From Pseudomonadota bacterium (lineage in GTDB: Bacteria; Pseudomonadota; Gammaproteobacteria; Burkholderiales; Rhodocyclaceae): a stretch of DNA of 64,000 bases. The position numbers were made by a program, and so were the translations under genes. The notes below the pieces were generated by a model, which was given only the letters and a program-made list of their open reading frames with translations, made no database searches and was not told the DNA's origin. The stretch spans positions 56,822-120,821 of the forward strand of contig JAFEDK010000014.1 in NCBI GenBank assembly GCA_018241665.1. Direction: 5' to 3'. Of the stretch, positions 36,882 to 54,622 are shown piece after piece. Within the stretch, counting starts at the first letter, position 1; each line of letters opens with the position of its first letter.

Positions 36882-39800
36882 GTGCTAACGCACGCAGATC
36901 GAAGCAGCCGGGCCGGCGCACTCGCCGGGCTGATGCTGATTGCATTAAGCGCCTGGCTCGCCGCCGGATTCCCTGCCCTGATCACGCCCGGGAGCGGAAC
37001 GCTCGCCGGCTTCGCCCTGGCCGGCGCGGGCCTGCTGGCAGCCAACACCACCTTCCCGCGGCAGCGGGCGCTGCAAACCCTGCTGGCGGTTGCCCTCGGC
37101 ACCCTGGCCGTGCTGAGCCTCGTCCGCGCCTTGCAGACGGCGAGTCCGCCGGCCAGCCTGCCGTCCCCCGTCACGGCCATCGTACTGGGCCTCGCCGCCA
37201 CCATTCTCGCCGGACTGCCCAGGGCCAGGAGCCAGCTTCCCCACATCGCCCTGCAGCTGCTGTTGCAATGGCTGTGCCTGCTGATCCTGCTGGGAAGCGC
37301 GGCCCAGGTACTGAATAGCATCGTCGGCATCGACCTGTTCGATTTCGGCGGCCGCCGCTTTGCCCTGGACTGGGCATCGGCACTGGCACTGGCGATCCTG
37401 GCTGTGGGCCTCGGCGCGACCCTGCTGCGCCTGCCGGGCCTGCGCAGCTTCTACCGCCACCGCCAGGACCGGCAGATCTTCGCCGTCGGAAGCTCGATGC
37501 TGCTGATCGCCGCCATCGCCGCCTGGCTGATCGGCGTCGGCGCCTTGGCGGGGCAGACCCTGTCCCTGTTCCGCCATACCCTGCAGTCCGCCTTGACCGC
37601 CAACATCAGCGTCCTTGGCAATGCCATCCACCACGCGGCTGCCGCCGCCGAGCAGGGCATCCAGCTGGCCCGCACCGACAACACCATCCGCCTCGGGGCC
37701 GGCGGCGCGGAACTCCACGCCGAGCTGCAGCGCCTCCTGATTGCCGGCCAGCCCTCGGGCCTGAAAGCCTTGTGGGTCACCGATGCGGCCGGCCGGATCC
37801 TCGCCAGCACCGGCGACCGCTCCACCGTCGAGCACAACCGCATGCGCATCGACCGGCGCAGCTGGCTGTTCTGGAATGATGCTTACTGGCTGGAGCTACG
37901 GATTCCGGTGGGCAGCGGCACCACGAGCCAGGGCGAGATCGTGGTGCAGGCGCGCCTCGAGCATCTCGCCGACGTCCTCAACGACATCGACAACCTGAGC
38001 CATTCCGGCGAACTCGTCGTCTGCCGGTCCGGCGGAGCCCATGCCGACTGCTTTCCGACCCGCCTGACACCGCATGCCTTCACCACCCCGAAAGTGGTGG
38101 ATGGCGTGCGCATCCCGATGGCCCGCGCACTGGACGGGGAATACGGCTTCGGCCTGTCCCGCGACTACCGGGGGCGGGCGGTCCTCGCAGCCTACGCCCC
38201 GCTGCCCGAGTTCGGCCTCGGCATCGTGCAGAAGCTGGACACCGGCGACATCCACGACCTCCTGCTCGAACAGCTGCGGATTTCCGCACTGCTGATCGGC
38301 GTGCTGGTGCTGACCGGCTCGGTCTTCCTGTATAGCCGCATCAGCCCGGTCGTCAGCAAGCAGGCCCGCACCCGCCTGCACCTCGATAAAGCCCAGCGCA
38401 TCGGGCGCATCGGCAGTTGGGAATATGACGTCACCCGCGGCACCGTGGCGTGGACCGAGGACGCCGCCGACGTACTGGGGCTGGGCCCGACGACCGACCT
38501 GTCCACCATCGACGCGATCTTCAAGCACATTCCCCCGGAACAGCGGCAGGACGTCAGGCTCGCGCTGGGGGCCGCGCTCAACGGCGGCACGCCACTCGAC
38601 ATCGAGCACCAGTTCATCCTGCCGGACGGCAGCCTCCGCTGGGTTCATGTACAGGGCAAGGTGCAGCAACGCACCGACAGCGCCCCGACGAGCATGATCG
38701 GCGTCACCCATGACATCACCGAGCGCGTCCGCGCCGAAGAAAAGATCCGCCGCCGCGACGCCTTCCTCAACGAAGCACAGCGCATTGCCCACCTGGGCAG
38801 TTGGGAATGGCGCCTGGACACCGACGAGCAGCTCTGGTCCGACGAGTGTTTCCGGCTGTTCGGCTACGAGCCGAACGAAGTCAGCGCAAGCCTGGAGCAA
38901 TTCAAGAGTCTGGTCGTGCCGGAAGACCTGCCCGCCGTCCTCAAACAAGTCGATACCGTCATCGCGACCCGCCAGCCGTGCACCTATCAGATGCGCATCC
39001 GGCGCCCGGACGGGGAGATCCGTTACCTGGACAGCCACGCCGAATTCACCGCCGACAGCGACGGCCGCCGGCAACGCCTGATCGGCACCAACCTCGACAT
39101 CACCGAACAGGTCCGCGCCAAGAAGCGGCTGGCCTACCTGGCGCGCCTGTACGCAGTCCTCAGCAAAGCCAACCAGGCCATCGTGCGGATCCGCGACAAC
39201 GACGAGCTGCTGCAGGCCCTGTGCCGGATCATGGTCGAGGATGGCGGCCTGGTCATGGCCTGGAGCTGCCGGATCGAAGACGGCCGGCCATCGCACATCA
39301 TCCACTGGGGCCATGAGGACGGTTACATCGAAACGACGCTGACCATCTACGACACCCTGACGGACGGCCAGGGCCCGACCCGCCGCGCCACCCGCGAGGG
39401 CCGCCATGTGCTGTGCGACGACATCGCCACCGATCCCGACATGGCGCCGTGGCGCGGCCTCGCCCTGAGCCGCGGCTACCGCTCGTCGGCGGCCTTCCAG
39501 ATCCGCCACCAGGACGAAATCACCCTGATCAACCTGTACGCGCCGGAGCCGCATTTCTTCACCGCCGAGATCGTCAGCCTGCTCGACGACCTGTGCCAGG
39601 ACGTCGCCTTCGCCTTCGAGGCAGCCCACCACAACACCCTGCGCCAGAAGGCCGAGACCGAATTGCGCCAGCTCAACGAGGAACTCGAGTGGCGGGTGGC
39701 CGAACGGACCCGCGCCCTCGAAGACGTGAACCGCGAACTGGAATCCTTCAGCTCGGCGGTATCCCATGACCTGCGCGCGCCGCTGCGCAGCATCGACGGT

Positions 39801-40424
39801 TTCAGCCAGGCCTTGCAGCGCCGCTACCAAGAGCACCTCGACGACGCCGGCCGCGACTATCTCGATCGCGTCCGCCGCGCCGCCCAGCGCATGGGACGGC
39901 TCATCGACGACATGCTCAAGCTATCCCGCGTGGCCCGCGGCCCGGTCCGCCGGCAACGGGTCGACCTGAGTACGCTGGCCCGCCAGATCCTCGATGAACT
40001 GCAACGCAACGACCCGGAGCGGCAGGTGGACATCCAGGTCACGGACGGCCTCATCGTCTTCGGCGACGCCGGCCTGCTGCGCATCCTGCTCGACAACCTG
40101 CTCGGCAACGCCTGGAAATTCACCCGCCACACACCGCGGCCGGAGATCCGCTTCGGCTGCCGGGCCGACGACGAACGCCCGATCTTCTTCGTGGCCGACA
40201 ACGGAGCCGGCTTCGATCCCGCCTATGCCCGGAAGCTGTTCAAGGAATTCCAGCGCCTGCACGCGGAGAGTGAATTCGAAGGCACCGGCATCGGCCTCGC
40301 CACCGTCGAGCGGGTGGTGCGCCGCCACCACGGCAAGGTGTGGGCGGAAGGCGCGGTCGGCCAAGGCGCGACGATCCACTTCACCTTGCCCCAGCGGGAA
40401 AGCGCAAGGGACAATAAAGCCTGA
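36882..40424 (+). CDS. Multi-PAS membrane sensor histidine kinase
   Basis: 1180 aa, GTG start (spacing from AAGGA is long, so the start is not certain). Seven hydrophobic segments within residues about 12-230, then an extracytoplasmic domain (about 230-460) with a Cache-like look, TM8 near 470, two PAS/PAC domains (about 500-745, WVHVQGKVQQRTDS and RYLDSHAEFTAD), a GAF domain (about 760-920) and HisKA with SHDLRAPLRSIDGFSQALQ (phospho-His near 961). HATPase has DNLLGNAWKF and the G motif FEGTGIGLATVERV. No receiver is attached, so it should act on the next genes. Confidence 0.9.
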   Translation: MLTHADRSSRAGALAGLMLIALSAWLAAGFPALITPGSGTLAGFALAGAGLLAANTTFPRQRALQTLLAVALGTLAVLSLVRALQTASPPASLPSPVTAIVLGLAATILAGLPRARSQLPHIALQLLLQWLCLLILLGSAAQVLNSIVGIDLFDFGGRRFALDWASALALAILAVGLGATLLRLPGLRSFYRHRQDRQIFAVGSSMLLIAAIAAWLIGVGALAGQTLSLFRHTLQSALTANISVLGNAIHHAAAAAEQGIQLARTDNTIRLGAGGAELHAELQRLLIAGQPSGLKALWVTDAAGRILASTGDRSTVEHNRMRIDRRSWLFWNDAYWLELRIPVGSGTTSQGEIVVQARLEHLADVLNDIDNLSHSGELVVCRSGGAHADCFPTRLTPHAFTTPKVVDGVRIPMARALDGEYGFGLSRDYRGRAVLAAYAPLPEFGLGIVQKLDTGDIHDLLLEQLRISALLIGVLVLTGSVFLYSRISPVVSKQARTRLHLDKAQRIGRIGSWEYDVTRGTVAWTEDAADVLGLGPTTDLSTIDAIFKHIPPEQRQDVRLALGAALNGGTPLDIEHQFILPDGSLRWVHVQGKVQQRTDSAPTSMIGVTHDITERVRAEEKIRRRDAFLNEAQRIAHLGSWEWRLDTDEQLWSDECFRLFGYEPNEVSASLEQFKSLVVPEDLPAVLKQVDTVIATRQPCTYQMRIRRPDGEIRYLDSHAEFTADSDGRRQRLIGTNLDITEQVRAKKRLAYLARLYAVLSKANQAIVRIRDNDELLQALCRIMVEDGGLVMAWSCRIEDGRPSHIIHWGHEDGYIETTLTIYDTLTDGQGPTRRATREGRHVLCDDIATDPDMAPWRGLALSRGYRSSAAFQIRHQDEITLINLYAPEPHFFTAEIVSLLDDLCQDVAFAFEAAHHNTLRQKAETELRQLNEELEWRVAERTRALEDVNRELESFSSAVSHDLRAPLRSIDGFSQALQRRYQEHLDDAGRDYLDRVRRAAQRMGRLIDDMLKLSRVARGPVRRQRVDLSTLARQILDELQRNDPERQVDIQVTDGLIVFGDAGLLRILLDNLLGNAWKFTRHTPRPEIRFGCRADDERPIFFVADNGAGFDPAYARKLFKEFQRLHAESEFEGTGIGLATVERVVRRHHGKVWAEGAVGQGATIHFTLPQRESARDNKA

Positions 40425-40446: not shown

Positions 40447-41952
40447 ATGAGCCCACCGCCCCGTCTGCACGTCCTGCTGATCGAAGACTCGCCCGACGAT
40501 GCCGACCTGATCCTGCTGGAGCTCGAAATGCACTGGCCGGACCTCGCCTTCCAGCGGGTGGACACCGAGGCCGCCATGCGCGCAGCGCTGGCCGTCCAAC
40601 CCTGGGACCTGGTGATCTCCGACTACCACCTTCCCCGCTTCAGCGCCACCGCAGCCCTCGAACTGCTGCGTGAGCTGGGCTGCGACCTGCCCTTCATCGC
40701 CGTCTCAGGCTTCGTCGGCGAAGAGTCCGCAGCCGCGCTGATCAAGGCGGGCGCCTCCGACTTCGTCGTCAAGGACAACCTCCCGCGCCTGCAACCCGCC
40801 ATCGAGCGGGCCCTGCGCGAAGCGGCCATCCGGCGCGACCACGAACACGCCCAGGAAGCCCTGCGCCTCAGCGAAAAGCGCCTGCGCGCCATCACCAACG
40901 CCGTCGGTGAAGCCCTTTTCGCCACCGACGCCCGTGGCGCGCTGCTATGGATGAACCCGGAAGCCGAGCGCCTGCTCGGGTGGACCGAGGAGGAGCTGCT
41001 TGGCCAGCAGATCCACTACATCATCCACCGCCCCGCCGCCGACGCCGCACCGTCCGACCCCGCCTGCTGCGGCACCTTGCTGGCCCTGCGCAGCGGCCAG
41101 ACCCAGCGCATCGACGACGACATCTACCTGCACAAGGACGGCACGCCGGTGCCCGTCTCCTTCGTCGCCACCCCGCTCATCGAGGACGGCCGCATCGTCG
41201 GCGCCGTTTCAGCGGCCCAGCCCATCGGGGCGCGCAAGCGCGTCCAGCAGGAACTGCGCGACGCCCGGCGCCGCTCCCAGGAACTGTCGGCCCACCTCCA
41301 GTCGGTGCGCGAAGAAGAACGCACCCACATCGCCCGCGAGCTGCACGACGAACTCGGCCAGCTGCTCACCGCCATCAAGATGGATGCCGCCTGGCTGCGC
41401 GCCCGCCTGCCCGCCGACGTCCAGCCGCTGCACGACAAGCTCGCCGGCATGACCCAGTTGATCGACAGCACCGTCGACTGGGTGCGCCGCATGTCGTCCG
41501 AACTGCGTCCGGTGATGCTCGACGACCTGGGCCTGCGCGACGCCGTCGAATGGTTCCTGGAAGGCTTCGGCCACCGCCACGGCATCGCCTGCAGCCTGGA
41601 GGCCGCCGCCGCCGAAGACCTGCAGACCGACAAGCCGCGCGCCACCGCGGCATTCCGCATCATCCAGGAATGCCTCACCAACATCGCCCGCCACGCCGCC
41701 GCCAGCCACGTACTGGTCTCCCTGGAGCGGGACACCGACGCCATCGAGATCACCGTCAGCGACAACGGCCGCGGTTTCGATCCGGCCACCGCCGGCACCC
41801 GCTCGTCCTTCGGCCTGCTCGGCATCCGCGAACGCGCCGAAGCCCTCGGCGGCAGCAGCGAGATCCGCAGCGCCCCCGGCCACGGCACCACCATCGCGGT
41901 ACGCCTGCCCCTCGGCGAGCCCGCCCATCAAGACAAGGACTGCCCCCGATGA
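40447..41952 (+). CDS. Receiver-PAS-histidine kinase of NarX/HisKA_3 type
   Basis: 501 aa, 22 bases after the big kinase. N-terminal receiver with Asp59 (VISDYHLPRF), a PAS domain (GEALFATDARGALLWMNPEA) and HisKA_3 with RTHIARELHDELGQLLTAIK (phospho-His) plus a HATPase ending SFGLLGIRERAEALGG. No transmembrane segment, so soluble. The receiver may accept phosphate from the upstream kinase. Overlaps the next response regulator gene by four bases (ATGA). Confidence 0.92.
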   Translation: MSPPPRLHVLLIEDSPDDADLILLELEMHWPDLAFQRVDTEAAMRAALAVQPWDLVISDYHLPRFSATAALELLRELGCDLPFIAVSGFVGEESAAALIKAGASDFVVKDNLPRLQPAIERALREAAIRRDHEHAQEALRLSEKRLRAITNAVGEALFATDARGALLWMNPEAERLLGWTEEELLGQQIHYIIHRPAADAAPSDPACCGTLLALRSGQTQRIDDDIYLHKDGTPVPVSFVATPLIEDGRIVGAVSAAQPIGARKRVQQELRDARRRSQELSAHLQSVREEERTHIARELHDELGQLLTAIKMDAAWLRARLPADVQPLHDKLAGMTQLIDSTVDWVRRMSSELRPVMLDDLGLRDAVEWFLEGFGHRHGIACSLEAAAAEDLQTDKPRATAAFRIIQECLTNIARHAAASHVLVSLERDTDAIEITVSDNGRGFDPATAGTRSSFGLLGIRERAEALGGSSEIRSAPGHGTTIAVRLPLGEPAHQDKDCPR

Positions 41953-42587
41953 TCCGTCTCATGCTGGCCGACGACCACAGCATCGTCCGCACCGGCCTCA
42001 AGCAGGTCCTCAGCGACGCACCGGAGTTCACGGTCTGCGCCGAAGCCGCCACCGGCGACGAGGTCATCGCCCAGGTCCGCCAGGCGCCGCCCGACCTGCT
42101 GCTGCTCGACATGTCGATGCCCGGCCGCAGCGGCATCGAGCTGATCAAGCAGTTGAAGAGTGAGTACCCCCGGCTGCCGATCCTGGTCCTCAGCATGCAC
42201 AAGGAAGAGCAGTACGCCGTCCGCGCCATCAAGGCCGGCGCGGCCGGCTACCTGACCAAGGAGCACGCCGGCGAGGAACTCATCGGCGCGCTGCGTAAGG
42301 TCGCCGGCGGTGGCGTCTTCATCAGCCCGGCCGTCGCCGAACGCCTGGCCCTCGAATACAGCGCCCGCCACAACGAACTGCCCCACACCACGCTGTCCGA
42401 CCGGGAATACCAGATCTTCCAGATGATCGTCGCCGGCGCCACCATCACCGCCATCTCCGAACGCCTGTCCCTCAGCGTCAAGACCGTCAGCACCCACAAG
42501 TCGCGCATCCTTCAGAAGATGGGCATGAGCAGCAGCGCCGAGCTGATCCACTACGCCATCGAACACCAGTTGGTCGAATTGCGCTGA
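41949..42587 (+). CDS. NarL/FixJ-family response regulator
   Basis: 212 aa. Receiver with Asp54 (LLLLDMSMPGR) and a C-terminal LuxR-type HTH (LSDREYQIFQMIVAGATITA then KTVSTHKSRILQKM). Output of the kinase pair just upstream; target genes are unknown. Confidence 0.94.
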   Translation: MIRLMLADDHSIVRTGLKQVLSDAPEFTVCAEAATGDEVIAQVRQAPPDLLLLDMSMPGRSGIELIKQLKSEYPRLPILVLSMHKEEQYAVRAIKAGAAGYLTKEHAGEELIGALRKVAGGGVFISPAVAERLALEYSARHNELPHTTLSDREYQIFQMIVAGATITAISERLSLSVKTVSTHKSRILQKMGMSSSAELIHYAIEHQLVELR

Positions 42588-42596: not shown

Positions 42597-42618
42597 GGGC
42601 GAATGAATTCGCCCCTAC
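42597..42618. repeat. REP-like single element C
   Basis: GGGCGAATGAATTCGCCCCT variant of the palindromic element (one base differs, CCCCTAC versus CCCCCAC), ten bases after the stop of the NarL-type gene. Confidence 0.85.
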
Positions 42619-42739
42619 GGAAGCACCTCGCTCACCGCGAAGCCCCTCCCCCCGCTGGGGCAAGTCATTCCCGCCACGGCAGGATCTTGCTCACGACTGA
42701 GCCCGCTTGCTCCCTGCCGGCGGGTCCGCTTCCCCGTCT

Positions 42740-42806
42740 GTGGGGGCGAATTCATTCGCCCTCGGATCTTATTCAACCAGCGCAGGGCGAATGAATTCGC
42801 CCCCAC
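42740..42806. repeat. REP-like palindromic pair D
   Basis: Two inverted 22-bp copies with a 23-nt spacer, the same overall length (67 bp) as the pair near 27,190; the spacer sequence differs. Confidence 0.9.
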
Positions 42807-43151: not shown

Positions 43152-44342
43152 ATGACGCGCCTCGCCGCCTCCCCGCTGCTGGCCCTCGGCGCCGGCCTGC
43201 CCGGCGCCGTCGCCGTGGCCGTGATCGGCGCCCCCAGCTGGCCGACCTTCGCCGCCGCCGGCGCCGCGCTGCTCATCGGCGGTGGCATCGGCTGGGCGAT
43301 CCGCCACGGCCTGCGCCAGGAGGCCGCCCTCGCCACCCAGCAACGCCATCGCGAAACGGAAACGACCCAAGTGGAAAAACTGACGCCCTACGTGGCCAGC
43401 CTCGACCAACTGGCCGAACGCCTGTTCCCCCTGTGGAGCCGCCAGATCGAGAGCGGCCGCTCCCAGATGGAAAGCGCCGTGGTCGGCCTGACCCTGGCCT
43501 TCTCCGCTATCGTCGATCGCCTCGACGTGTCGGTGCGCACCGCCGACGCGGCCTCCGGCGCGGCCGACGGCGAAGGCGGCCTGCTCGGCGTGTTCACCCG
43601 CAGCGAAACCCGCCTGCAATCCCTGATCGAATCCCTGCAGACCGCCAACCGCCACAAGGAAGAGATGGTTGCCGAGGTGAAGCGCCTGCAGCAGTTCATC
43701 GTCGAACTGCAGAAGATGGCGGTGGATGTCGCCGGCATCGCCGACCAGACCAACCTGCTGGCCCTCAACGCGGCCATCGAGGCCGCCCGCGCCGGCGAGG
43801 CCGGGCGCGGCTTCGCGGTGGTGGCCGACGAAGTGCGCAAGCTGTCCGGCCAGTCCAAGACCACCGGTGTCAACATGGGCAGCGCGGTGGATGCCATCAG
43901 CAAGGCCATCGCCACCGCCGTCGCCAGCGCCGAGAGCACCGCCGTCAATGACGCCCGCGCGCTGCAGGCCTCGGAGGACGCCATCGGCGAAGTGCTCGGC
44001 GGCTTCCGCGGCATCATCGACGGCCTCGTCGAATCCAGCCACACCCTGCGCAACGAGAGCGCCGGCATCAAGTCCGACGTCTCCGACGCCCTCGTCCAGC
44101 TCCAGTTCCAGGACCGGGTCAGCCAGATCCTCAGCCACGTCCGCGACAGCATCGACGCGCTGCCGGCGCAGCTGGCCACCAGCCACGCCGACGTCGCCCA
44201 CGGCGGCTGGCCGCAGCCCCTGCCGGTGGATCGCATGCTGGCCAGCCTGTCCGGCAGCTACGCCACCGCCGAAGAACGCCAGATCCACACCGGTGGTGCC
44301 GCTGCCGCCGGTGACGACCCGTCAGAAATCACCTTCTTCTAG
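43152..44342 (+). CDS. Short methyl-accepting chemotaxis-type receptor
   Basis: 396 aa. Two N-terminal hydrophobic segments (about residues 5-25 and 33-52) with almost no periplasmic loop, no HAMP domain, then a signalling coiled coil with the hairpin tip [19 protein letters not shown]. The C-terminal stretch includes [16 protein letters not shown]. It is therefore an unusual receptor that may sense inside the cell or at the membrane. AGGAG links it to cheY downstream. Confidence 0.87.
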
Positions 44343-44352
44343 GAGTACATCC

Positions 44353-44721
44353 ATGGCTAAAACCATTCTCGTGGTGGACGATTCCGCCTCCCTGCGCCAG
44401 GTCGTCAGCATCGCCCTGAAGGGCGCCGGCTATGACGTCGTCGAGGCCTGCGACGGCAAGGACGCCCTCGGCAAGCTCGACGGCCGCAAGGTGCACCTGG
44501 TCATCAGCGACGTGAACATGCCCAACATGGACGGCATCACCTTCGTCAAGGAGATGAAGAAGCTGCCCGGCTACAAGTTCACCCCGGTCGTCATGCTGAC
44601 CACCGAAAACCAGGAAGCCAAGAAGGCCGAAGGCCAGGCCGCCGGCGCCAAGGCCTGGATGGTCAAGCCCTTCGCCCCGGCGCAGATGCTCAACGCCGTC
44701 TCCAAGCTGATCCTGCCCTGA
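44353..44721 (+). CDS. cheY: CheY-type response regulator
   Basis: 122 aa single receiver. Asp pair at 9-10 (VVDDSAS), phosphoacceptor Asp53 (VISDVNMPN), Thr of MLTTEN and Lys of MVKPFAP. Length and motifs are typical. AGGAG lies upstream of the ATG. Confidence 0.93.
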   Translation: MAKTILVVDDSASLRQVVSIALKGAGYDVVEACDGKDALGKLDGRKVHLVISDVNMPNMDGITFVKEMKKLPGYKFTPVVMLTTENQEAKKAEGQAAGAKAWMVKPFAPAQMLNAVSKLILP

Positions 44722-44749
44722 GCGGCCGGCCAGCAGCCAGGAAAGCGCC

Positions 44750-45058
44750 ATGAGCCTCGACATCGCCCGGGACGACGGCCACACCCGCGTCCGCTTCAGC
44801 GACGAGCTGAACATCTACAACGCCGCCGCCATCCGGGACGCCCTGCTGGCCCTGCCGGCGGACGAAAGCCCCTGCCACCTCGACCTGGGCGACGTCATCG
44901 AAGTCGACTGCGCCGGCCTGCAAGTGGTGCTGGCCGCCCTGCGCAGCCTGCCCGCCAGCCGCCTTGAACGCTGCAGCGCGGCGGTGCGCGACTGCCTCGC
45001 CCTGTGCGGCCTCGACGCGCTGCTGCCGGCCGCCCCCACCTCCAGCGGAGAGCAATGA
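44750..45058 (+). CDS. STAS-domain protein
   Basis: 102 aa. Fold with ELNIYNAAAIRDALLAL and a LDLGDVIEVDCAGLQVVLAAL core, like anti-sigma factor antagonists. The residue after D in VDCAGLQ is Cys, not the phosphorylatable Ser of SpoIIAA, so phospho-control is doubtful. It overlaps cheA by four bases; a role in the CheA array is inferred. Confidence 0.88.
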   Translation: MSLDIARDDGHTRVRFSDELNIYNAAAIRDALLALPADESPCHLDLGDVIEVDCAGLQVVLAALRSLPASRLERCSAAVRDCLALCGLDALLPAAPTSSGEQ

Positions 45059-47214
45059 ACATGGACATCGATCAGGCCATCCCGACCTTCCTCCTCGAAG
45101 CCCGCGAACTGCTGGAGCAGATGGAGGACGGCCTCTTGCAGATCGAGAACGGCGAGGGCGACGGGGAGACCGTCAATGCCATCTTCCGCGCCGCCCACAC
45201 CATCAAGGGCTCGGCCGGCATCTTCGGCTTCGACGAGGTGGTCGGCTTCACCCACACCGTCGAGAACGTCCTCGACCGCGTGCGCGGCAATGAACTCGCC
45301 ATCGACCGCCCGCTGGCCGAACTGCTGCTGGCCAGCGGCGACCATATCGGCACCCTGCTGCAGCGCGTCGCCGACAAGGCCCACGGCCACGACCCGGTCG
45401 TCAACGCGATCGGCCACGACCTGCTCGGCCAGCTGGCCCGCTTCACCACCACCAGCACCCTGCCGGTTGCGGCCGCCAGCGCCGCGCCTGTCGCCGCCCC
45501 GGCCGCGAGCAGCGGCGGCGACAGCGCGATCACCGGCAACTGGCATGTCTCCCTGCGCTTCAGCCGGGAAGTCCTGCAGCACGGCATGGACCCGCTGTCC
45601 TTCATCCGCTACCTGGGCAGCCTCGGCGACATCGAGGGCATCGTCACCCTGCAGGACGCGCTGCCGCCCCTCGACGCGCTGGACCCGGAAGCCTGCTACC
45701 TGGGCTTCGAGATCAGCCTGAAGAGCGAGGCCAGCCACGCCGACATCGACGGCGCCTTCGACTTCGTGCGCGACGACGCGACCATCCACATCCTGCCGCC
45801 CCGCAGCCCGCTGCAGGCCTACGCCGACATGCTGACGGCGCTGTCGCCGGAGCCGGCCAGCCTCGGCGAAGCGCTGGTGCGCTGCGGCACCCTCGACGCC
45901 GCCGAGCTGGAACGGGCCCTGGCGCCCGCCCCCGCAACAACGACGGCCCTCGTGCCCGTCATCGCCGACGACACCCCGGCCCTGCCCGCCCTCATCGACG
46001 CGGCAGTCCCCGCCGCCGGCGGCAAGCCGCCCCGCGACAGCGGCCGCGCCAAGACCCTGCGCGTGGATGCCGACAAGCTCGACAAGCTGATCAACCTGGT
46101 CGGCGAGCTGGTCATCGCCGGTGCCGGCGCCAACATGATCGCCGGCCAGCTGAAGGCCCGCCGCATGCTCGAAGCCACCTCGACGATGGCGCGCCTGATC
46201 GAGGAAGTCCGCGACAGCACCCTCAACCTGCGCATGGTGCAGATCGGCGAGACCTTCAACCGCTTCCAGCGCGTGGTGCGCGACGTGGCCCGCGACCTCG
46301 GCAAGGACATCCGCCTGGTCATCAACGGCGCCGAGACCGAACTCGACAAGACCATGGTCGAGAAGATCGGCGACCCGCTGATGCACCTGGTGCGCAACGC
46401 CATGGACCATGGCATCGAGCCCGCCGAGCTGCGCGTGGCCCGCGGCAAGCCGGCCCAGGGCACGATCCGCCTCGACGCCCGCCACGACTCCGGCGGCGTG
46501 CTGATCGAAGTCAGCGACGACGGCAATGGCCTCAACCGCGAGCGCATCCTTCGGAAAGCCGTCGAGAAAGGCCTCGTCAGCCCCCAGCAGAACCTCTCCG
46601 ACGAAGACGTCTACAAGCTGATCTTCGCCCCCGGCTTCTCCACCGCCGAACAGCTCAGCAACATCTCCGGGCGCGGCGTCGGCATGGACGTGGTCAAGAA
46701 GAACATCGAAGCCCTGCACGGCAGCATCGAGATCGACAGCGTCGAAGGCCAGGGCAGCACCATGCGCATCCGCCTGCCGCTGACCCTCGCCATCATCGAC
46801 GGCTTCCTGGTCGGCGTCGGCGATGCCTCCTTCGTGATCCCGCTGGACCAGGTCGTCGAGTGCATCGAACTGCCTGCCGCCGAACGCCAGTCCGGCCAGC
46901 GCCGCGACTACCTCAACCAGCGCGGCCAGATCCTGCCCTACACCCGCCTGCGCGACGCCCTCGACCTGCCGGTCGGCAAGGAGGGGCGCCATACCGACCG
47001 CAACCTGGTGGTCGTGCAGTACGGCGGCAAGCGCGCCGGGCTGGTGGTGGACAGCCTGCACGGCGAGATCCAGACCGTCATCAAGCCCCTCGGCCGCGTC
47101 TTCAGCCGCGTCCAGGGCATCAGCGGGTCGACCATCCTGGGCAGCGGCGCCGTCGCGCTGATCCTCGACGTTCCACGCCTCCTGCAACAGGTCACCGACC
47201 GCGCGGCCGCCTGA
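45055..47214 (+). CDS. cheA: Chemotaxis histidine kinase CheA
   Basis: 719 aa. HPt domain with phospho-His48 (AAHTIKGSAG), a central domain of uncertain type, then dimerisation, HATPase (HLVRNAMDHGIE, SDDGNGLNRERI, ISGRGVGMDVVKK) and a CheW-like end (GDASFVIPLDQVVECIEL). ATG at MNMD overlaps the STAS stop. It should phosphorylate the CheY two genes upstream. Confidence 0.95.
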   Translation: MNMDIDQAIPTFLLEARELLEQMEDGLLQIENGEGDGETVNAIFRAAHTIKGSAGIFGFDEVVGFTHTVENVLDRVRGNELAIDRPLAELLLASGDHIGTLLQRVADKAHGHDPVVNAIGHDLLGQLARFTTTSTLPVAAASAAPVAAPAASSGGDSAITGNWHVSLRFSREVLQHGMDPLSFIRYLGSLGDIEGIVTLQDALPPLDALDPEACYLGFEISLKSEASHADIDGAFDFVRDDATIHILPPRSPLQAYADMLTALSPEPASLGEALVRCGTLDAAELERALAPAPATTTALVPVIADDTPALPALIDAAVPAAGGKPPRDSGRAKTLRVDADKLDKLINLVGELVIAGAGANMIAGQLKARRMLEATSTMARLIEEVRDSTLNLRMVQIGETFNRFQRVVRDVARDLGKDIRLVINGAETELDKTMVEKIGDPLMHLVRNAMDHGIEPAELRVARGKPAQGTIRLDARHDSGGVLIEVSDDGNGLNRERILRKAVEKGLVSPQQNLSDEDVYKLIFAPGFSTAEQLSNISGRGVGMDVVKKNIEALHGSIEIDSVEGQGSTMRIRLPLTLAIIDGFLVGVGDASFVIPLDQVVECIELPAAERQSGQRRDYLNQRGQILPYTRLRDALDLPVGKEGRHTDRNLVVVQYGGKRAGLVVDSLHGEIQTVIKPLGRVFSRVQGISGSTILGSGAVALILDVPRLLQQVTDRAAA

Positions 47215-47250
47215 CCCGCCACTTTCTGAAATCCCAGCCGGAGAACATTC

Positions 47251-48888
47251 ATGTTCAGCAATCTGAAAATCAGCCAACGCCTGGCCTTCGGGTTCGGGCT
47301 CGTCCTGGCCCTGCTGGCCGCCATCGTCTACATCGGCACCAGCCGCATGATGGCGATCAACGACAGCGTCCAGCAGATCACCACCGTCAATAACGAGAAG
47401 ACCCGCGTCAGCAACGCGATGGTGGACAACCTGCGCGACTCGGCGATCGCCCTGCGCAACCTGCTGCTGAGCCAGGACGACGGCGTCACCAAGACCGAAA
47501 GCGCTCGCCTCGATGCCCGCGCAAAGAGCTACGCAGACGGCGAAGCCGAACTGGACAAGCTGCTCGCCGCCGGCGCCAGCGACGAGGAACGTGCCCTCGC
47601 CGGCAAGATCAAGAACCTCAAGGAAACCGTAATGCGCCTGCAGGTCCAGGTGCTCGACACCGCCCGCCAGGGCCGCATGGCCGACGCCACCGCGCTGCTG
47701 TTCAAGGAAGTCCGCCCGGCCCAGCGGGAATGGCTGGACAGCCTGGCCAAGTTCGTCGACGAGGAAACCAAGGCCACCGAGATCGCCGCCCGCAAGGCCA
47801 GCGAGACCTACGACAGCGCGCTGAAGAGCATGCTGGTGCTGAGCGCCATCGCCATTGCGATCGGTATTGCGCTGGCGATCAGCGTAACCCGCTCCATCAC
47901 CGGCCCGCTGGCCCAGGCAGTGGGCATCGCCCGCGCCCTTGCCGATGGGGACCTGAGCACCCGTATCGAGGTGAACCGCAAGGACGAAGCCGGCCAGCTG
48001 CTGCAAGCCCTGCAGGACATGGTCGACAAGCTGTCCGACATCATCGGCCAAGTGCATAGCACCGCCGACAGCCTCGGCAGCGCCTCCGAGCAGGTGTCCG
48101 CCACTGCCCAGAGCCTGTCCCAGGCCACCAGCGAGCAGGCCGCCAGCGTCGAGGAAGTGTCCGCCACCGTCGAGCAGGCCTCCGCCTCGATCAACCAGAA
48201 CAGCGACAACGCCCGCCTCACCGACACCATGGCCTCCAAGGCCGCCGAAGAGGCTGCTTCCGGCGGCGATGCCGTGTCCCAGACCGTATCCGCGATGAAG
48301 GAGATCGCCGAGAAGATCGGCATCATCGACGACATCGCCTACCAGACCAACCTGCTGGCCCTCAACGCCGCCATCGAAGCGGCCCGTGCCGGCGAGCACG
48401 GCAAGGGCTTCGCCGTCGTCGCCGCCGAGGTGCGCAAGCTGGCCGAGCGCTCCCAGGAAGCCGCCCAGGAAATCGGCGAAGTCGCCGGCAGCTCCGTGCG
48501 CCTGGCCGACCAGGCCGGCCACCTGCTGCAGGCCATGGTCCCGGCGATCCGCAAGACGTCGGAACTGGTGCAGGAAATTGCCGCAGCCTCCGAGGAACAG
48601 TCGGGTGGCGTCAGCCAGATCAGCACCGCCATGCACCAGCTCAACCAGGTCACCCAGCAGAACGCCTCCGCGTCGGAAGAGCTGGCCGCCACCGCCGAGG
48701 AGATGAGCGCCCAGGCCGAGCAGCTGCAGCAGCTGATCCAGTTCTTCAAGACCACCGGAATCCGCCCCACGCCGCGCCAGGTCCGCAGCAACAAGGGCCG
48801 GCGCCCCGCCGACAAACCGCTGGCGCCGCAAGGCGAGCTGGCGGTTGCCGGCGCCGGCCTGTCGCCGCAGGACTTCGTCCGCTTCTGA
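47251..48888 (+). CDS. Methyl-accepting chemotaxis protein (four-helix-bundle sensor)
   Basis: 545 aa. TM1 at about 12-32, a periplasmic helical domain of about 160 residues (4HB type: [20 protein letters not shown]), TM2 at about 193-213, a HAMP and a full signalling domain with [18 protein letters not shown] tip. The signalling part is almost identical to that of the receptor at 49,484. The C-terminal tail ends DFVRF with no CheR-binding pentapeptide of the NWETF kind. Confidence 0.93.
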
Positions 48889-48914
48889 ACGGCCTGCCCC
48901 AACGGAGACCCCAC

Positions 48915-49448
48915 ATGCAGCCCAGACACGACAACAACGGCAGCCCCAGCGCAGAAACCGGGAAGGAGCAGTACCTCACCTTCAACCTGCGCGGCGAGCT
49001 GTTCGCCATCGGCATCCTGTCGATCCGCGAAATCATCGAGTACGCCCAACTGACCCAGGTGCCGATGATGCCGCCCTACATCCGCGGGGTCATCAACCTG
49101 CGCGGCTCGGTGGTGCCGGTGGTGGACCTGCTGGCCCGCTTCGGCCAGGGCCTCACCGAACCCAAGCGGCGCACCTGCGTGGTGATCGTCGAGGTGGACG
49201 GCGAGGACGGCATCCAGCAGCTCGGCGTGCTGGTGGACGCGGTCAACGAAGTGCTGGAGATCCCCGCCACCGACGTGGAGCCGCCGCCGTCCTTCGGCGT
49301 ACACATCCGCAACGAGTTCATCCGCGGCATGGGCAAGATCGGCGAGCGCTTCGTGATCCTCCTCGACGTGGCCCGCAGCTTCGCGGTGGATGAGCTGGCC
49401 GGCCTCGCCTCGGTCGCCGCCACTGAGTCCGAAACCCTCGCGGCCTGA
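48915..49448 (+). CDS. cheW: Chemotaxis coupling protein CheW
   Basis: 177 aa, single CheW domain. Core motifs [20 protein letters not shown] and [20 protein letters not shown] are standard. It connects receptors to CheA. Sits between two receptors. Confidence 0.94.
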
Positions 49449-49483
49449 ACGGCACGCCCCGACGCCCCCAAGGAAGGACCCTC

Positions 49484-51421
49484 ATGCAACTCAAGTCCTG
49501 GAAGGACATGGCCATCGGCAGCCGCCTGATCGCGGTGCAGAGCGCCCTGTCCCTACTCATGGTGCTCATCCTCGCGGGCGTCATCGGCCACTACGCCGAG
49601 CGCTACCTCGAGGAGCGCGGCATCGCCGAGATGCAGCGCACCACCCAGCGCCTGCTCGACACCCTCGCCACCGCCGACGACAGCCTGCGCCTCGGCATGG
49701 AGCGCAGCCTGGCCCTCTACCGCGCCCCCTACAGCGGCCCGATGAGCGTGGACGCCGGCCACCTGATCCCGTCCGGCAACCAGCAGCTGCCGCAGCTGAA
49801 GAGCGGCAACCTGGTCCTCAACAACGACAACGATGCCGCCGACCGCTTCACCGCGCTCACCGGCCTCGTCGCCACCATCTCGGTGCGCCAGGGCGACGAC
49901 TTCTTCTTCGTCACCAGCTCCGGCAAGGACGCCGGCGGCGTGCGCAACGTGGGCGCACGCCTCGACCGCAAGCACCCGGCCTACGAGCGCCTGCTGCGCG
50001 GCGAGATCTACGCCGGCCCGTCCAAGCGCGACGGCATGTTCAACTACGCCTACTACCAGCCGATCAAGGACGCCCGCGGTGCCATCATCGGCGCCTTCGC
50101 CATCGGCATGAACATGACCGACGGCATGAAAAGCCTGCGCGACAAGTTCCTCGGCATGAAGATCGGCGAGACCGGCTACGCCGCGGTGCTCGACAACAGC
50201 TTCGAACCGGGCCTGGTGTATATCCACCCGGCCGCCGAAGGCAAGAACATCGCCGGCGCCAAGGACTCCAGCGGCCGCGAGTTCATCCGCGAAGTGCTCG
50301 CCAAGAAGAAGGGCGTCACCTTCTACCCGTGGCTCAACAAGGAACTCGGCGAGACCGAGGCCCGCGAGAAGGTCGCCGTGCATGACATGTACGCGCCCTG
50401 GGGCTGGGAGATCATGGTCACCACCTACCGGGACGAATTCACCCGCGAATCCCGCGAGTTGGCCGCGGTCATCCTCGGCGGCACCGCGCTGCTGGTGCTG
50501 GCCCTCAATGTCGTGCTCTACGGCATGATCCGCCGCCTGGTGCGCCGCCCGCTGCAGCAGGCGGTGAACACCGCCCAGGTGATCGCCAGCGGCGACTTCA
50601 CGACCCGCATCGAAGTCCATGGCAACGATGAGGCCGGTCAGTTGCTGGGCGCCCTGCGCGACATGAGCGAGCGCCTGTCCGACGTGATCGGCCAGGTACG
50701 CAGCTCGGCCGACAGCCTCGGCAGCGCTTCCGAACAGGTTTCCGCCACCGCCCAGAGCCTGTCCCAGGCCACCAGCGAGCAGGCCGCCAGCGTCGAGGAA
50801 GTCTCCGCCACCGTCGAGCAGGCCTCCGCCTCCATCAACCAGAACAGCGACAACGCCCGCCTCACCGACACCATGGCCTCCAAGGCCGCCGAAGAGGCCG
50901 CTTCCGGCGGCGACGCCGTGTCCCAGACCGTCTCCGCGATGAAGGAGATCGCCGAGAAGATCGGCATCATCGACGACATCGCCTACCAGACCAACCTGCT
51001 GGCGCTCAACGCCGCCATCGAGGCGGCCCGCGCCGGCGAGCACGGCAAGGGCTTCGCCGTCGTCGCCGCCGAGGTGCGCAAGCTGGCCGAGCGTTCCCAG
51101 GAAGCCGCCCAGGAGATCGGCGAAGTCGCCGGCAGCTCCGTGCGCCTGGCCGACCAGGCCGGCCACCTGTTGCAGGCCATGGTCCCGGCGATCCGCAAGA
51201 CCTCGGAGCTGGTGCAGGAAATCGCCGCGGCCTCCGAGGAGCAATCCGGTGGCGTCGGCCAGATCAGCACCGCGATGCACCAGTTGAACCAGGTCACCCA
51301 GCAGAACGCGGCGGCCTCCGAGGAGCTGGCTGCCACCGCCGAGGAAATGAGCGCCCAGGCCGAGCAACTGCAACAACTGGTGGCCTTCTTCCGGACCGCG
51401 ACGCCGGCCGGCCACCGCTGA
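49484..51421 (+). CDS. Methyl-accepting chemotaxis protein (Cache sensor)
   Basis: 645 aa. TM1 about 20-37, a periplasmic Cache-type domain (about 45-320; [47 protein letters not shown]), TM2 about 325-345, HAMP and signalling domain. The signalling region from about residue 405 on matches the receptor at 47,251 almost residue for residue. Ligand unknown. Confidence 0.93.
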
Positions 51422-51432
51422 CAAGGACGTCA

Positions 51433-52041
51433 ATGGAAATTCCGTCATCCCCTTCACCCACCGGAGGGCACTCCCTGCAACTGGTCGTCGAGATCAGTGC
51501 CGGGATCCGCCAGGTCACCGCCCTGTCCAGCCAGGTCAACCTGGTGGCCCTCAACGCGATGCTGGCGGCCAAGCAGGCCGGCAGCCAGGCCCGCGGCTTC
51601 GGCATCGTGTCCGGCGAGCTGCGCCAGTTCAGCGGCCAGCTCGACCGGCAGATGCACGAGCTCGGCGACTTCATCGGCGACCTGGTCCATTCGGTCGCCG
51701 AGTCCGCCCGCATCCGGCTGCACGTGGCCCATCTCGACCAGATCCCGGCGGCCATCCAGCCCCGCCTGGCCGGCGCCGCTGCGCGCATCGAGGCCCGCCA
51801 GGCACGCATCGACAGCGACGGCAGCGAGCGCTGGTTCGGCCTCGGCAACCGGCTCGACCACGCGCTGCGCCTGTGCAACACCGGCATCGCCCTGTCCCGC
51901 GCGGCCAAGATCGAGGCCGTCTATGGCCAGGCCCTGGCGGCCAGCCTGCGCCAGGTGGCCGACGAGATCGAGGACGCCATCGTCACCATCCTGGGCACCA
52001 TCAAGCAATTGCGCCGGGCCCTCGCCCACCACGCCGGCTGA
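51433..52041 (+). CDS. Truncated MCP-like cytoplasmic protein
   Basis: 202 aa with no transmembrane segment. Residues about 20-60 resemble the receptor hairpin tip (SSQVNLVALNAMLAAKQAGS), but the long coiled coil needed for a standard receptor is missing and the rest (IRLHVAHLDQIPAAIQPRLA onward) is helical with no known family. It may bind CheA/CheW or compete with receptors. It lies 11 bases after the Cache receptor gene. Function is inference. Confidence 0.7.
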   Translation: MEIPSSPSPTGGHSLQLVVEISAGIRQVTALSSQVNLVALNAMLAAKQAGSQARGFGIVSGELRQFSGQLDRQMHELGDFIGDLVHSVAESARIRLHVAHLDQIPAAIQPRLAGAAARIEARQARIDSDGSERWFGLGNRLDHALRLCNTGIALSRAAKIEAVYGQALAASLRQVADEIEDAIVTILGTIKQLRRALAHHAG

Positions 52042-52063
52042 ATCCCAGCCGACAGGAACCACA

Positions 52064-52831
52064 ATGAAAAAAACCACCTCCATCTTCCAGGATGGCGAGC
52101 ACCAGTGGATCGTCGTCGCCCGTGACCCGCAGCGCCCCGACTACCTGATCGACACCAACGAATACCTGGTCATGGACGGCCAGCGCGCGCTGCTCACCGA
52201 CCCGGGCGGCTCGGAAATCTTCTCGGCGGTCTTCTCGGCCCTCACCGCCGCCGTCGACCCGCGCCACATCGAAGTCCTGTTCGCCTCCCACCAGGATCCA
52301 GACATCATCTCGTCGCTGGCCCTGTGGCTGGAGTTCAAGCCGGAACTCAAGTGCCACCTGAGCTGGCTGTGGTCCGAGTTCGTGCCCCACTTCGGCGGCC
52401 GGGACGATACCTTCATCCACATCCCCGACGAGGGCGGCACGATCCGCCTCGGCCGCCTCACCCTCGAGGCGCTGCCGGCCCACTACCTGCACTCGTCCGG
52501 CAACTTCCACCTGTACGACCGCAAGGCGCACATCCTCTTCAGCGGCGACGTGGGGGCGGCCCGCCTCAGCGGCGACTATCCCCTGTTCGTCGAAGACTTC
52601 GACCGCCACATCCGCCAGGCCGAAGGTTTCCACCGCCGCTGGATGGGCTCGACCGAAGCCAAGCGCGACTGGTGCGAGCGGGTCAGCCAGTTGCCGATCG
52701 ACATGCTCTGTCCGCAGCACGGCGCCATCTACCAGGGCACCGACGTGATGCGCTTCATCAACTGGTTCGACGAGCTGCCGGTGGGCAGCGGCCTGCGCCG
52801 GGCGGCCAGCCCCATGCCGGCGCAGGCGTGA
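52064..52831 (+). CDS. Oxygen-binding di-iron protein (flavodiiron-like metallo-beta-lactamase fold)
   Basis: 255 aa. Di-iron ligands seen in the flavodiiron order: His76-x-Asp78-x-Asp80 (SHQDPD), His140, Asp162 (FSGDVGA) and His219 (PQHG). It lacks the flavodoxin domain, so it should not reduce O2 on its own. Related stand-alone proteins (ODP) act as O2 sensors in chemotaxis of other bacteria. Position inside the receptor cluster supports that role. Confidence 0.85.
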   Translation: MKKTTSIFQDGEHQWIVVARDPQRPDYLIDTNEYLVMDGQRALLTDPGGSEIFSAVFSALTAAVDPRHIEVLFASHQDPDIISSLALWLEFKPELKCHLSWLWSEFVPHFGGRDDTFIHIPDEGGTIRLGRLTLEALPAHYLHSSGNFHLYDRKAHILFSGDVGAARLSGDYPLFVEDFDRHIRQAEGFHRRWMGSTEAKRDWCERVSQLPIDMLCPQHGAIYQGTDVMRFINWFDELPVGSGLRRAASPMPAQA

Positions 52832-52899
52832 GAAGATCACAGGCCAACCACATCCCACCCCTGCCCTGAGCACGCCCGCCCATGCCCAAGGAGAACGCC

Positions 52900-54594
52900 A
52901 TGTTGCACATTCTGCTGATCGAGGACTCGGACGACGACGCCGAGTTGCTGCGCCTGGCACTGCTCGACAGCGAGATCGTGGCCCAGCTCACCCGCGTGGC
53001 CACCCGTGCCGGGCTGATCGCGGCCCTGGGCGAGCGGACCTGGGACCTGGTCGTCTGCGACCACCACCTGCCCGACCTGGACGCCCTGATCGCCCTCGAC
53101 ATCATCGCCGCGGCGGGTGGCGGCGAGCCGGCGATGCCGGTGATCGTGATGTCCGGCACGATGGAAACCGCCGAGGCCGTAGAGGCCATGCACCGCGGCG
53201 CCCGCGACTGCATGGCCAAGCAGGACCTGCCCAAGCTGCTGCCGGTGCTGGAGCGGGAGATCGCCCATGCCCGCGCCCAGGCCGAGCTGCGCAGCGCCCG
53301 CGCCACCCTGCAGCAGCGCGCCGAGCAGAACCCGGTGACCGGCCTGCCCAACCGGGCGCGCCTGGAACTGCACCTGCAGACCCTGCTGCGCGACGAAGGC
53401 GCGGTGGCCCTGCTGCTCATCGAGGCGGGGCGCCGCAGCCATGCGATCCGCGCACTGCTGCCCGACGCCGGCCACAAGCTGCAGCAGGAGATGGCGCGAC
53501 GGCTCGCCATGCAGACCGGCCCCGAAGACCTGCTGGCCCACCTGGACGACGGCAGCTTCGCGGTGGTGATGCCCCATTGCAGCGGCGAAGCTGCCCTGGC
53601 CGCCCTGGCCGGGCGCCTGAACCAGGCCCTGGAGCCCCCCTTCGAGCTGGGCGACTACCGCATCGCGATCAGCAGCCGCATCGGCGCCTGTCGCGCCGGC
53701 GACGACGCCGAGCACATGCTGCTGGCCGCGACCGCCGCGCTGCTGCAGGTCGATGCCCGGCGCGGCGGCGCCTACCGCCTGTACACACCGGACATGCACC
53801 AGGTCGGCAAGCGCCGCCTGATCCTGGAAAGCGCGCTGCACCAGGCCCTGTCCCGCGAAGAGTTCGAGCTCCACTACCAGCCGAAGGCCTCCATCTCGAA
53901 TGGCACCATCGTCGGGGCCGAGGCCCTGCTGCGCTGGCGCCACCCCACCCTGGGCCCGATCTCGCCGCTGGAGTTCGTGCCCATCCTGGAAGACTCCGGC
54001 CTCATCGTCGAGGTCGGGCGCTGGGTCATCGAGCAGGCCTGTCTGCAGGCCTGCCGCTGGCGGGACGCGGGACTCCCGCCGATCAACATCGCGGTCAACC
54101 TGTCGGCCGCCCAGTTCCACGAGAGCGGCCTCATCGACACGATCCGCGACATCCTGGCTGGGAGCCACCTGCCGCCCGAGCGCCTGGTGCTGGAGATCAC
54201 CGAGCGGGTCGCCATCAACGGCGAAGCACCGACCATCGCGGTGATGGACGCCCTGCACCGCCTGGGTGTGCGCATCGCCCTCGACGACTTCGGCGCCGAC
54301 TACTCCTCTCTCGGCTACCTCAAGCGCTTTCCGATCGACACGCTGAAGATCGACCGGATGTTCATCACCGATCTGGATGCCAGCGAAGCCGACCGCAACA
54401 TCGTCCGCGCCATCGTCGCCATGGGCCACAGCCTCGGCCTGCGGGTCGTCGCCGAAGGCATCGAGACTGAAACCCAGCGGGCCTTCCTGGCCACCTGCGC
54501 CTGCGACGTGATGCAGGGCTACCTGTACAGTCGCCCGCTACCGGCGGACGATTTCACCCGCTTCCTGGCCAGCACCGCGTTGCAGCAAGCCTGA
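52900..54594 (+). CDS. Receiver-GGDEF-EAL protein (likely c-di-GMP phosphodiesterase)
   Basis: 564 aa. AAGGAG lies six bases before the second ATG, which is chosen. Receiver with Asp54, a GGDEF domain whose active loop is LDDGSF instead of GGDEF (inactive as a cyclase), and an EAL domain that keeps EALLRWRHP, LEITE, DDFGADYSS, KIDRMF and EGIET, so it should degrade c-di-GMP. It is in the right place to be phosphorylated by CheA. Confidence 0.92.
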   Translation: MLHILLIEDSDDDAELLRLALLDSEIVAQLTRVATRAGLIAALGERTWDLVVCDHHLPDLDALIALDIIAAAGGGEPAMPVIVMSGTMETAEAVEAMHRGARDCMAKQDLPKLLPVLEREIAHARAQAELRSARATLQQRAEQNPVTGLPNRARLELHLQTLLRDEGAVALLLIEAGRRSHAIRALLPDAGHKLQQEMARRLAMQTGPEDLLAHLDDGSFAVVMPHCSGEAALAALAGRLNQALEPPFELGDYRIAISSRIGACRAGDDAEHMLLAATAALLQVDARRGGAYRLYTPDMHQVGKRRLILESALHQALSREEFELHYQPKASISNGTIVGAEALLRWRHPTLGPISPLEFVPILEDSGLIVEVGRWVIEQACLQACRWRDAGLPPINIAVNLSAAQFHESGLIDTIRDILAGSHLPPERLVLEITERVAINGEAPTIAVMDALHRLGVRIALDDFGADYSSLGYLKRFPIDTLKIDRMFITDLDASEADRNIVRAIVAMGHSLGLRVVAEGIETETQRAFLATCACDVMQGYLYSRPLPADDFTRFLASTALQQA

Positions 54595-54622
54595 TCCAGC
54601 CGGCCCCGGCGCGGCACAGGCC

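Follow-up and report, generated by a model that had tools for sequence, protein, structure and literature searches.

What does a chemosensory array sense, and what does it control, when its genes include a di-iron protein and an enzyme of cyclic di-GMP (c-di-GMP) metabolism? The question is raised by a ten-gene cluster at positions 43152 to 54594 of a 64,000-nucleotide stretch (here, the window; contig JAFEDK010000014.1 of assembly GCA_018241665.1, positions 56,822 to 120,821) from a Zoogloea-like member of the Rhodocyclaceae, whose 5.4-Mb genome lies on 55 contigs and is 99.95% complete. We suggest with moderate confidence, from sequence comparison, that the cluster encodes an array coupling oxygen or redox sensing to c-di-GMP breakdown. 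An initial annotation of the window had proposed an array linking di-iron input to c-di-GMP, and this remains the best reading; within its lineage, the whole gene set has been conserved together.

Gene content and conservation of the cluster

Open reading frame (ORF) positions and Pfam matches give the order, from 5' to 3', of a methyl-accepting chemotaxis protein (MCP1), CheY, a STAS protein, CheA, MCP2, CheW, MCP3, a short MCP (sMCP), an oxygen-binding di-iron protein (ODP), and a REC-GGDEF-EAL protein (Table 1). All ten genes lie on the forward strand, with successive intergenic gaps of 10, 28, -4, 36, 26, 35, 11, 22, and 50 bp, the negative value being a 4-bp overlap of the cheA start with the STAS stop. 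The initial annotation had placed these genes on one strand with short gaps, as we find them; its three receptors become four, since MCP1, MCP2, MCP3, and sMCP all contain the Pfam MCPsignal domain. No sigma-70-like promoter was found in positions 42400 to 55000, a result that is little informative.

Gene order is maintained in three further genomes, SZAS-76, SZAS-77, and Zoogloea sp. LCSB751 (the three relatives), and the ratio of nonsynonymous to synonymous substitution rates (dN/dS) against them is below 0.32 for every comparable cluster gene but that of the STAS protein. Given this shared order and constraint, sequence comparison indicates that the cluster is conserved by purifying selection and that its arrangement is not due to chance. 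For SZAS-77, a contig break leaves CheW not found and MCP2 and MCP3 partial. The sMCP and ODP genes, uncalled in loci L112 and L114, were taken from ORFs (L112) and from the overlapping locus L056 (LCSB751). Values of dN/dS against the metagenome-assembled genome (MAG) CTSoil_117 (0.30 to 1.31) were not used because dS was high (0.60 to 0.89) and the MCP1 and MCP3 matches are unclear orthologues.

Output enzyme

In alignments read by eye, the EAL domain retains its catalytic residues (EALLRW, the N of AVNLS, the E of LEITER, DDFG, LKID, EGIETE, and MQGY) in the window and the three relatives, and the GGDEF or GGEEF active site is replaced by DDGSF in all four. The receiver (REC) retains its acidic pocket, Asp, Ser, and Lys, also by eye; for all three domains we assume the customary roles of these residues. 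Given a degenerate GGDEF domain beside a complete set of EAL residues, c-di-GMP hydrolysis is the likely activity of the enzyme and cyclase activity is unlikely, so that the c-di-GMP turnover first proposed is narrowed to one direction. Against the three relatives, dN/dS for this gene is 0.165 to 0.192.

Di-iron protein and short receptor

ODP far exceeds the curated cut-off of PF19583 (243.4 bits versus 27.2) and matches solved oxygen-binding di-iron proteins (6qrq, E 1.5e-63; 6qnm, E 1.1e-57). Its alignments retain HQDPD, LHS/MHS, SGD, and PQHG, an HxDxD, H, D, H pattern of what we take to be metal ligands, and the same positions are present in seven aligned ODP relatives. The adjoining sMCP is a sensorless receptor in that MCPsignal is its sole Pfam match above cut-off (35.4 bits versus 34.6, residues 20 to 94). 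At the tip position that we equate with Glu385 of Tsr, Glu is lacking in all 83 unique sMCPs (68 by pattern and 15 by eye), and sMCP has a second conserved motif, LSRAAKIEAVYG.

The C-terminal half of sMCP aligns in register with the canonical receptor tip (Prob 13, P 0.002, score 20.9, compared with at most 16.5 for 40 column-permuted controls and 14.1 for the reversed control), and it retains an invariant Glu at the position from which Glu is missing in the first tip. An internal repeat between the N-terminal and C-terminal halves is weak (Prob 5; Prob 2.2), the match of the C-terminal half to the canonical tip being the one comparison that scores above its controls. This match is suggestive of a second, degenerate tip, and a bolder reading is that sMCP may be a single-chain receptor pseudo-dimer. 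AlphaFold models sMCP (mean predicted local distance difference test score [pLDDT], 89.6) as two straight helices, residues 10 to 102 and 109 to 201. However, since MCP1 (pLDDT 73.3) is also modeled as one helix, 144 to 349, straight through its canonical tip, the predicted models do not settle a hairpin topology for sMCP. A Foldseek search with the sMCP model gave no PDB match at E ≤0.001.

The host genome has four strong ODP matches (244 to 259 bits) and two weaker ones, and a second sMCP-ODP pair lies at C23. Free pairs of this kind are common in Rhodocyclales loci, and they are under-sampled in our set, in which the best 80 of 143 loci were kept. Records of Shewanella aestuarii and Pseudoalteromonas xiamenensis contain an ODP homologue (51% and 47%, respectively) that comes after a 207- or 205-amino-acid protein, annotated as hypothetical or chemotaxis protein, which resembles sMCP by eye. 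An EAL gene is also found near ODP in loci L126, L128, and L131 and near another ODP copy of the host genome (L052). In the last of these (C51; L052, 7502 to 12155), ODP is flanked by a PAS-HAMP-MCP on one side and a GGDEF-EAL protein on the other, which gives the same genome a second neighborhood of ODP and c-di-GMP genes. In a Hydrogenophilus MAG (L131, 2 to 5645), a REC-GGDEF-EAL gene lies two genes downstream of a free sMCP-ODP pair.

Adaptation genes and the STAS protein

The initial annotation found no methylation enzymes. This holds for the cluster and the contig but not for the genome, which has four CheR and three CheB matches, all on other contigs. MCP2 and MCP3 retain EE-type methylation motifs like those of receptors from CheR-containing clusters (by eye), and MCP2-type receptors end in a pentapeptide with aromatics at positions 2 and 5 in 15/15 ODP clusters whose end is visible, a rule for CheR-type pentapeptides given in PMC7390727. 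With motifs and pentapeptide both in place, the notion of an array without methylation is not supported, and adaptation in trans by CheR and CheB encoded elsewhere is plausible.

The single STAS domain encoded beside cheA recalls CheS of Sinorhizobium meliloti and Agrobacterium; S. meliloti CheS, a STAS-only che-cluster protein, binds CheA and helps it distinguish two CheYs, influencing transfer between them (PMC12654446). The likeness is one of position and size, and the window protein differs in that it evolves fast. The window cluster has two receivers, CheY and the one on the output enzyme, and two adjacent CheY-type genes are present in five Gallionella/Nitrosomonadales versions (L120, L122, L125, L128, and L129). 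An anti-sigma role for the STAS protein (site D-C-A-G) is not favored, as Cys occupies the position of the usual phosphorylated Ser, both in the window protein and in those of its three relatives.

A receptor with a CheZ-like end

MCP1 contains QFQDRVSQ at residues 318 to 325 and ends in EITFF. Among 84 called proteins with a canonical tip, a count that includes duplicates across overlapping loci, QDxxxQ lies 115 to 128 residues past the tip in 30, only before the tip in 3, and nowhere in 51. A profile of the MCP1 end searched against 2125 unique called proteins returned 34 family members (five labeled "other" by our script, with a tip pattern that differs or is cut), followed by the sole CheZ of the set at E 1e-7; beyond CheZ, nothing outside the family scored better than E 0.19. 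Conversely, a profile built from 17 CheZ proteins returned CheZ and then mostly MCP1-type proteins from E 1.1e-5. In profile-profile comparison, MCP1 ends aligned with CheZ (Prob 68, P 6e-6), with D-x-x-x-Q in register with the CheZ active site, whereas 35 control receptor ends were unalignable (P 0.9). QFQDxxxQ, which contains the D-x-x-x-Q pair of that active site, is invariant in the aligned MCP1 family.

Across the phylum, the MCP1 end was matched at E 0.001 in 129/299 genomes, although some of these matches fall in frames of more than 1100 amino acids and resemble chance similarity of coiled coils; at E 2.2e-14 or better, 20 of the 298 sampled genomes other than the host have it. FQDxxxQ is present in the central ORF of 18/19 loci read besides that of the host, and 16 of these have a recognizable tip, both features being read in the central ORF alone and apart from operon context. 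The first MCP in records of Aeromonas sp. BC14 and Pseudomonas sp. HR96 likewise has QFQDxxxQ and ends in TFF.

We consider it an evenly balanced proposition that MCP1 represents a receptor type that is both a lattice member and a CheY phosphatase, its descending arm having become a CheZ-type D-x-x-x-Q module followed by a conserved C-terminal peptide (EITFF/VELF). An MCP1-type receptor heads this STAS-CheA operon class. The combination is possibly a new receptor type and is the part of the cluster likeliest to surprise a specialist. Alternatively, the MCP1 end may not be a phosphatase, and QFQDxxxQ may be a docking motif that is CheZ-like by convergence, which would affect the dephosphorylation step only. 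Single-sequence scores are indeed weak: the CheZ profile reaches the window MCP1 alone at only E 0.61, and Pfam CheZ (PF04344) gives no match to MCP1 up to E 1 and 22.2 bits, under the cut-off of 30.7, for its C10 paralogue. When the MCP1 end was searched against PDB, the matches were mostly coiled coils, with CheZ absent up to E 10, and coiled coils resemble one another by chance, with one unrelated protein, L054_5 (E 0.019), among the CheZ-profile matches. On the other hand, in 23 MCP1-type proteins, down to 23% identity, the only residues invariant outside the tip are Q318, F319, Q320, D321, Q325, L337, H379, and F396, and the CheZ pair is matched in register where control ends fail to align. 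Convergence is a possibility that we regard as somewhat doubtful. At C10 of the host genome (L047, 6178 to 6768), a CheD-like protein has the C-terminal sequence NNVELF, a peptide of the type that also ends MCP1-type receptors; a docking peptide shared by the two is possible.

Relatives and operon history

The ordinary operon type is MCP-CheY-STAS-CheA-MCP-CheW-CheR-CheD-CheB, in which CheD may be missing and the order varies slightly. It occurs in the host genome (C10, L047), in family genomes (L098, L099, L100, L101, L104, L105, and L108), and on plasmids of Aeromonas sp. BC14 and Pseudomonas sp. HR96 (named records). Among the STAS-CheA clusters read, eight have CheR/CheB, and none was seen in the stretch read for the window, LCSB751, SZAS-77, CTSoil_117, L102, and L103; three more (L107, L109, and L111) are ended by contig ends. 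Because this operon type normally carries CheR/CheB, their lack in the window cluster is best read as loss. L102 and L103 are other STAS-CheA clusters of the family, and such loss may have occurred more than once.

The placement of sMCP-ODP inside a che operon, noted in the window, extends through its lineage to CTSoil_117 and to Gallionella/Sulfuricella-type genomes. In genomes of Gallionella, Gallionellaceae, Sulfuricella, Sulfurimicrobium, or Nitrosomonadales, the pair lies between CheW and CheR. CheR comes next after ODP in 11/12 loci of this group that extend past ODP (L116 to L120, L122, L123, and L125 to L128), and CheW is visible upstream in 10 of the 11, L119 starting at sMCP. The remaining locus of the 12, L121, is without a che gene on a short contig of 6.2 kb, and L129 ends at ODP. 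CTSoil_117 (L059/L124) has STAS-CheA-MCP-CheW-MCP-sMCP-ODP without CheR/CheB, and directly after ODP a lone REC of the same kind as the REC-GGDEF-EAL receiver (101 bits). In the window and the three relatives, CheR-CheD-CheB is gone, a double-Cache MCP and REC-GGDEF-EAL have been added, and CheW is followed by MCP3-sMCP-ODP-REC-GGDEF-EAL (in SZAS-77, CheW falls in the contig break and the set is split over two contigs). Ten other genomes of the same genus were sampled, of which two, SZAS-77 and LCSB751, have sMCP (98% and 91%) and a CheA orthologue (95%). The outcome is mixed for the two pairings that the initial annotation proposed to look for in other genomes: STAS-CheA is widespread, whereas a REC-GGDEF-EAL gene immediately after ODP was observed in the window and its three relatives alone.

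Proposed mechanism and alternatives

In the mechanism that we propose, ODP, a clear member of its family, would bind O2 (or iron) at the di-iron site and act on the short, soluble sMCP, with which it is paired by conserved synteny and whose tip would join the CheA/CheW lattice together with MCP2 and MCP3. The lattice would set CheA activity, and phosphorylated CheA would feed both CheY and the receiver of REC-GGDEF-EAL, with the STAS protein perhaps biasing transfer between the two as CheS does. Judging from the profile evidence, the CheZ-like module of MCP1 might strip phosphate from a receiver inside the array. Phosphorylation of the output enzyme would change the activity of its EAL domain, presumably lowering c-di-GMP and favoring departure from flocs or biofilm. 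The set as a whole would derive from the CheR-CheD-CheB-containing operon type, and adaptation, if any, would proceed via CheR and CheB encoded elsewhere.

Several observations weigh against this coupling, in addition to the weak single-sequence CheZ scores given above. The host genome has 30 EAL matches, so the presence of one next to a che cluster is not in itself unusual. The STAS gene, with dN/dS of 0.88 to 1.30 (102 codons, low dS), shows near-unconstrained evolution, an argument either against a closely fixed function or in favor of a partner that is itself changing. REC-GGDEF-EAL looks like a recent addition, since it directly follows ODP only in the window lineage, and CheY may still serve flagella. 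As to whether the c-di-GMP gene is a chance neighbor, counts alone do not settle the matter; positional conservation is the argument against chance.

Ordinary aerotaxis would dispense with the c-di-GMP branch, the array driving flagella via CheY and REC-GGDEF-EAL serving as a phosphate sink or passenger. CheY ranks with the best-conserved proteins of the ten-gene cluster (98.4 to 99.2% identity to the three relatives), and other relatives share the core without a c-di-GMP gene directly after ODP, as this explanation would have it. However, a separate che cluster at C4 of the host genome, with CheV-like, CheY, CheZ, and CheA genes, could serve flagella, and REC-GGDEF-EAL is conserved in place in four genomes, under constraint and with its EAL residues intact. 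We therefore regard aerotaxis alone as unlikely.

A variant that does not exclude coupling to c-di-GMP is the same array with an ODP that responds to nitric oxide or iron in place of O2. Flavo-diiron proteins are relatives of ODP (weak matches to 1e5d, 4dik, and others), and free sMCP-ODP pairs lie near PhaC, hemerythrin, and DUF2249 genes (L062) or near a Crp-family regulator and HemN (L051); genes of the sizes seen at L062 recur in many other loci, matched by size alone. The solved ODPs, in contrast, are named oxygen binding, and ODP is called an oxygen sensor in PMC7666581; we consider this variant quite unlikely.

A histidine kinase-type gene lies upstream of the cluster in L096, L097, and L106 as in the window, and a HisKA_3 kinase and a NarL-type regulator are found upstream wherever a che-linked ODP locus extends far enough to show them, a total of 13 genomes (the window, L112, L114/L096, L097, L106, L116, L117, L120, L122, L123, L126, L128, and L129); in L106, three other genes intervene between this pair and the cluster. 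Although these conserved neighbors, and the resemblance of the HisKA_3 kinase receiver to that of REC-GGDEF-EAL (66 bits), allow that the upstream system rather than CheA serves REC-GGDEF-EAL, the 564 bp with repeats before MCP1, compared with 50 bp from ODP to REC-GGDEF-EAL within the che gene run, and the lone receiver retained right after ODP in CTSoil_117 make this very doubtful.

Features and surroundings of the cluster

Table 1. Features of the chemosensory cluster and its conserved upstream neighbors (window coordinates)
Feature	Position	Strand	Basis
PAS-GAF-HisKA histidine kinase, conserved upstream neighbor	36933..40424	+	Pfam; ORF open from GTG 36882
REC-PAS-HisKA_3 hybrid kinase, conserved upstream neighbor	40447..41952	+	Pfam
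NarL/LuxR-type response regulator, conserved upstream neighbor	41949..42587	+	Pfam
Three copies of REP-like palindrome GGGCGAATGAATTCGCCC	42597..42802	.	Gap upstream of MCP1
MCP1 receptor, CheZ-like C-terminal module	43152..44342	+	Pfam MCPsignal; canonical tip residues ~200-231
CheY-type receiver	44353..44721	+	Pfam Response_reg
STAS protein, CheS-like by position and size	44750..45058	+	Pfam STAS; site D-C-A-G
CheA	45055..47214	+	Pfam Hpt, H-kinase_dim, HATPase, and CheW domains
MCP2, 4HB-HAMP receptor	47251..48888	+	Pfam; methylation-type motifs; C-terminal DFVRF
CheW	48915..49448	+	Pfam CheW
MCP3, double-Cache HAMP receptor	49484..51421	+	Pfam Cache_3-Cache_2 and HAMP; without pentapeptide
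sMCP, 202 amino acids, without recognized sensor domain	51433..52041	+	Pfam MCPsignal
ODP, oxygen-binding di-iron protein family	52064..52831	+	PF19583, E 2e-72; solved-structure matches
REC-GGDEF-EAL, degenerate GGDEF (DDGSF), predicted phosphorylation-controlled c-di-GMP phosphodiesterase	52882..54594	+	Pfam; motif reading

The palindrome GGGCGAATGAATTCGCCC, which resembles repetitive extragenic palindromic (REP) sequences, has six sites in the window (27194, 27235, 28481, 42597, 42744, and 42785). Genome-wide, 649 exact matches were counted on both strands, compared with 0 for the pattern read backwards, and the places listed are often paired about 41 bp apart and in runs. Upstream of the cluster, positions 29803 to 34346 hold genes of the soluble NAD-reducing NiFe hydrogenase type (Pfam Complex1_51K fusion and NiFeSe_Hases; the two middle genes by eye). 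A P450 gene and an AraC-type regulator (54623 to 57081; named by eye and profile matched) come after the operon in each of the four genomes carrying it.

Known systems and significance

The hallmark of Wsp systems is a REC-GGDEF cyclase output together with their own CheR and CheB homologues, a combination that the window cluster does not have. Wsp, assigned to the ACF class, is a system of receptor and CheA that acts through the c-di-GMP enzyme WspR (PMC11253619); WspR is a cyclase, whereas in the window the GGDEF domain is degenerate, EAL is intact, and CheY is present. In Treponema denticola (TDE2498/TDE2496), an ODP family sensor is genetically coupled to an MCP homologue without a membrane or sensing module that is able to modulate CheA, according to PMC7666581. 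The window pair is alike but differs in that sMCP has only 202 amino acids and a tip without the Glu of Tsr 385, and in that the surrounding operon is proteobacterial and also encodes STAS and a c-di-GMP enzyme. The Aeromonas sp. BC14 and Pseudomonas sp. HR96 plasmid operons share MCP-receiver-STAS-CheA-MCP-CheW and the QFQDxxxQ of the first MCP, but where they continue with CheR-CheD-CheB, the window has MCP3, sMCP-ODP, and REC-GGDEF-EAL instead. CheZ itself shares the FQDxxxQ site and an alignable helix with MCP1; the window module, unlike CheZ, is part of a receptor and scores under the Pfam cut-off.

The initial annotation was aware of no characterized precedent for this exact gene set. 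Our literature search, which left most subscription journals outside its reach, showed, among the titles and abstract openings listed, none on this gene set or on a receptor with a CheZ-like end, but STAS-CheA (CheS) and ODP with a sensorless MCP are already known. These two precedents and the CheZ-like end of MCP1 were missed in the initial annotation.

If the proposed coupling is true, a common chemotaxis operon has been replumbed by a tail swap, in which adaptation genes went out and an oxygen-sensor cassette and a c-di-GMP phosphodiesterase came in. The CheZ-like receptor end would be a built-in off-switch for arrays of this class and, since the MCP1 end is found in 20 of 298 other genomes sampled, many arrays would combine control of the kinase with dephosphorylation within a single lattice. 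Because Zoogloea resiniphila is a dominant activated-sludge floc former (PMC9012009), a switch from O2 to c-di-GMP in this lineage would bear on floc formation.

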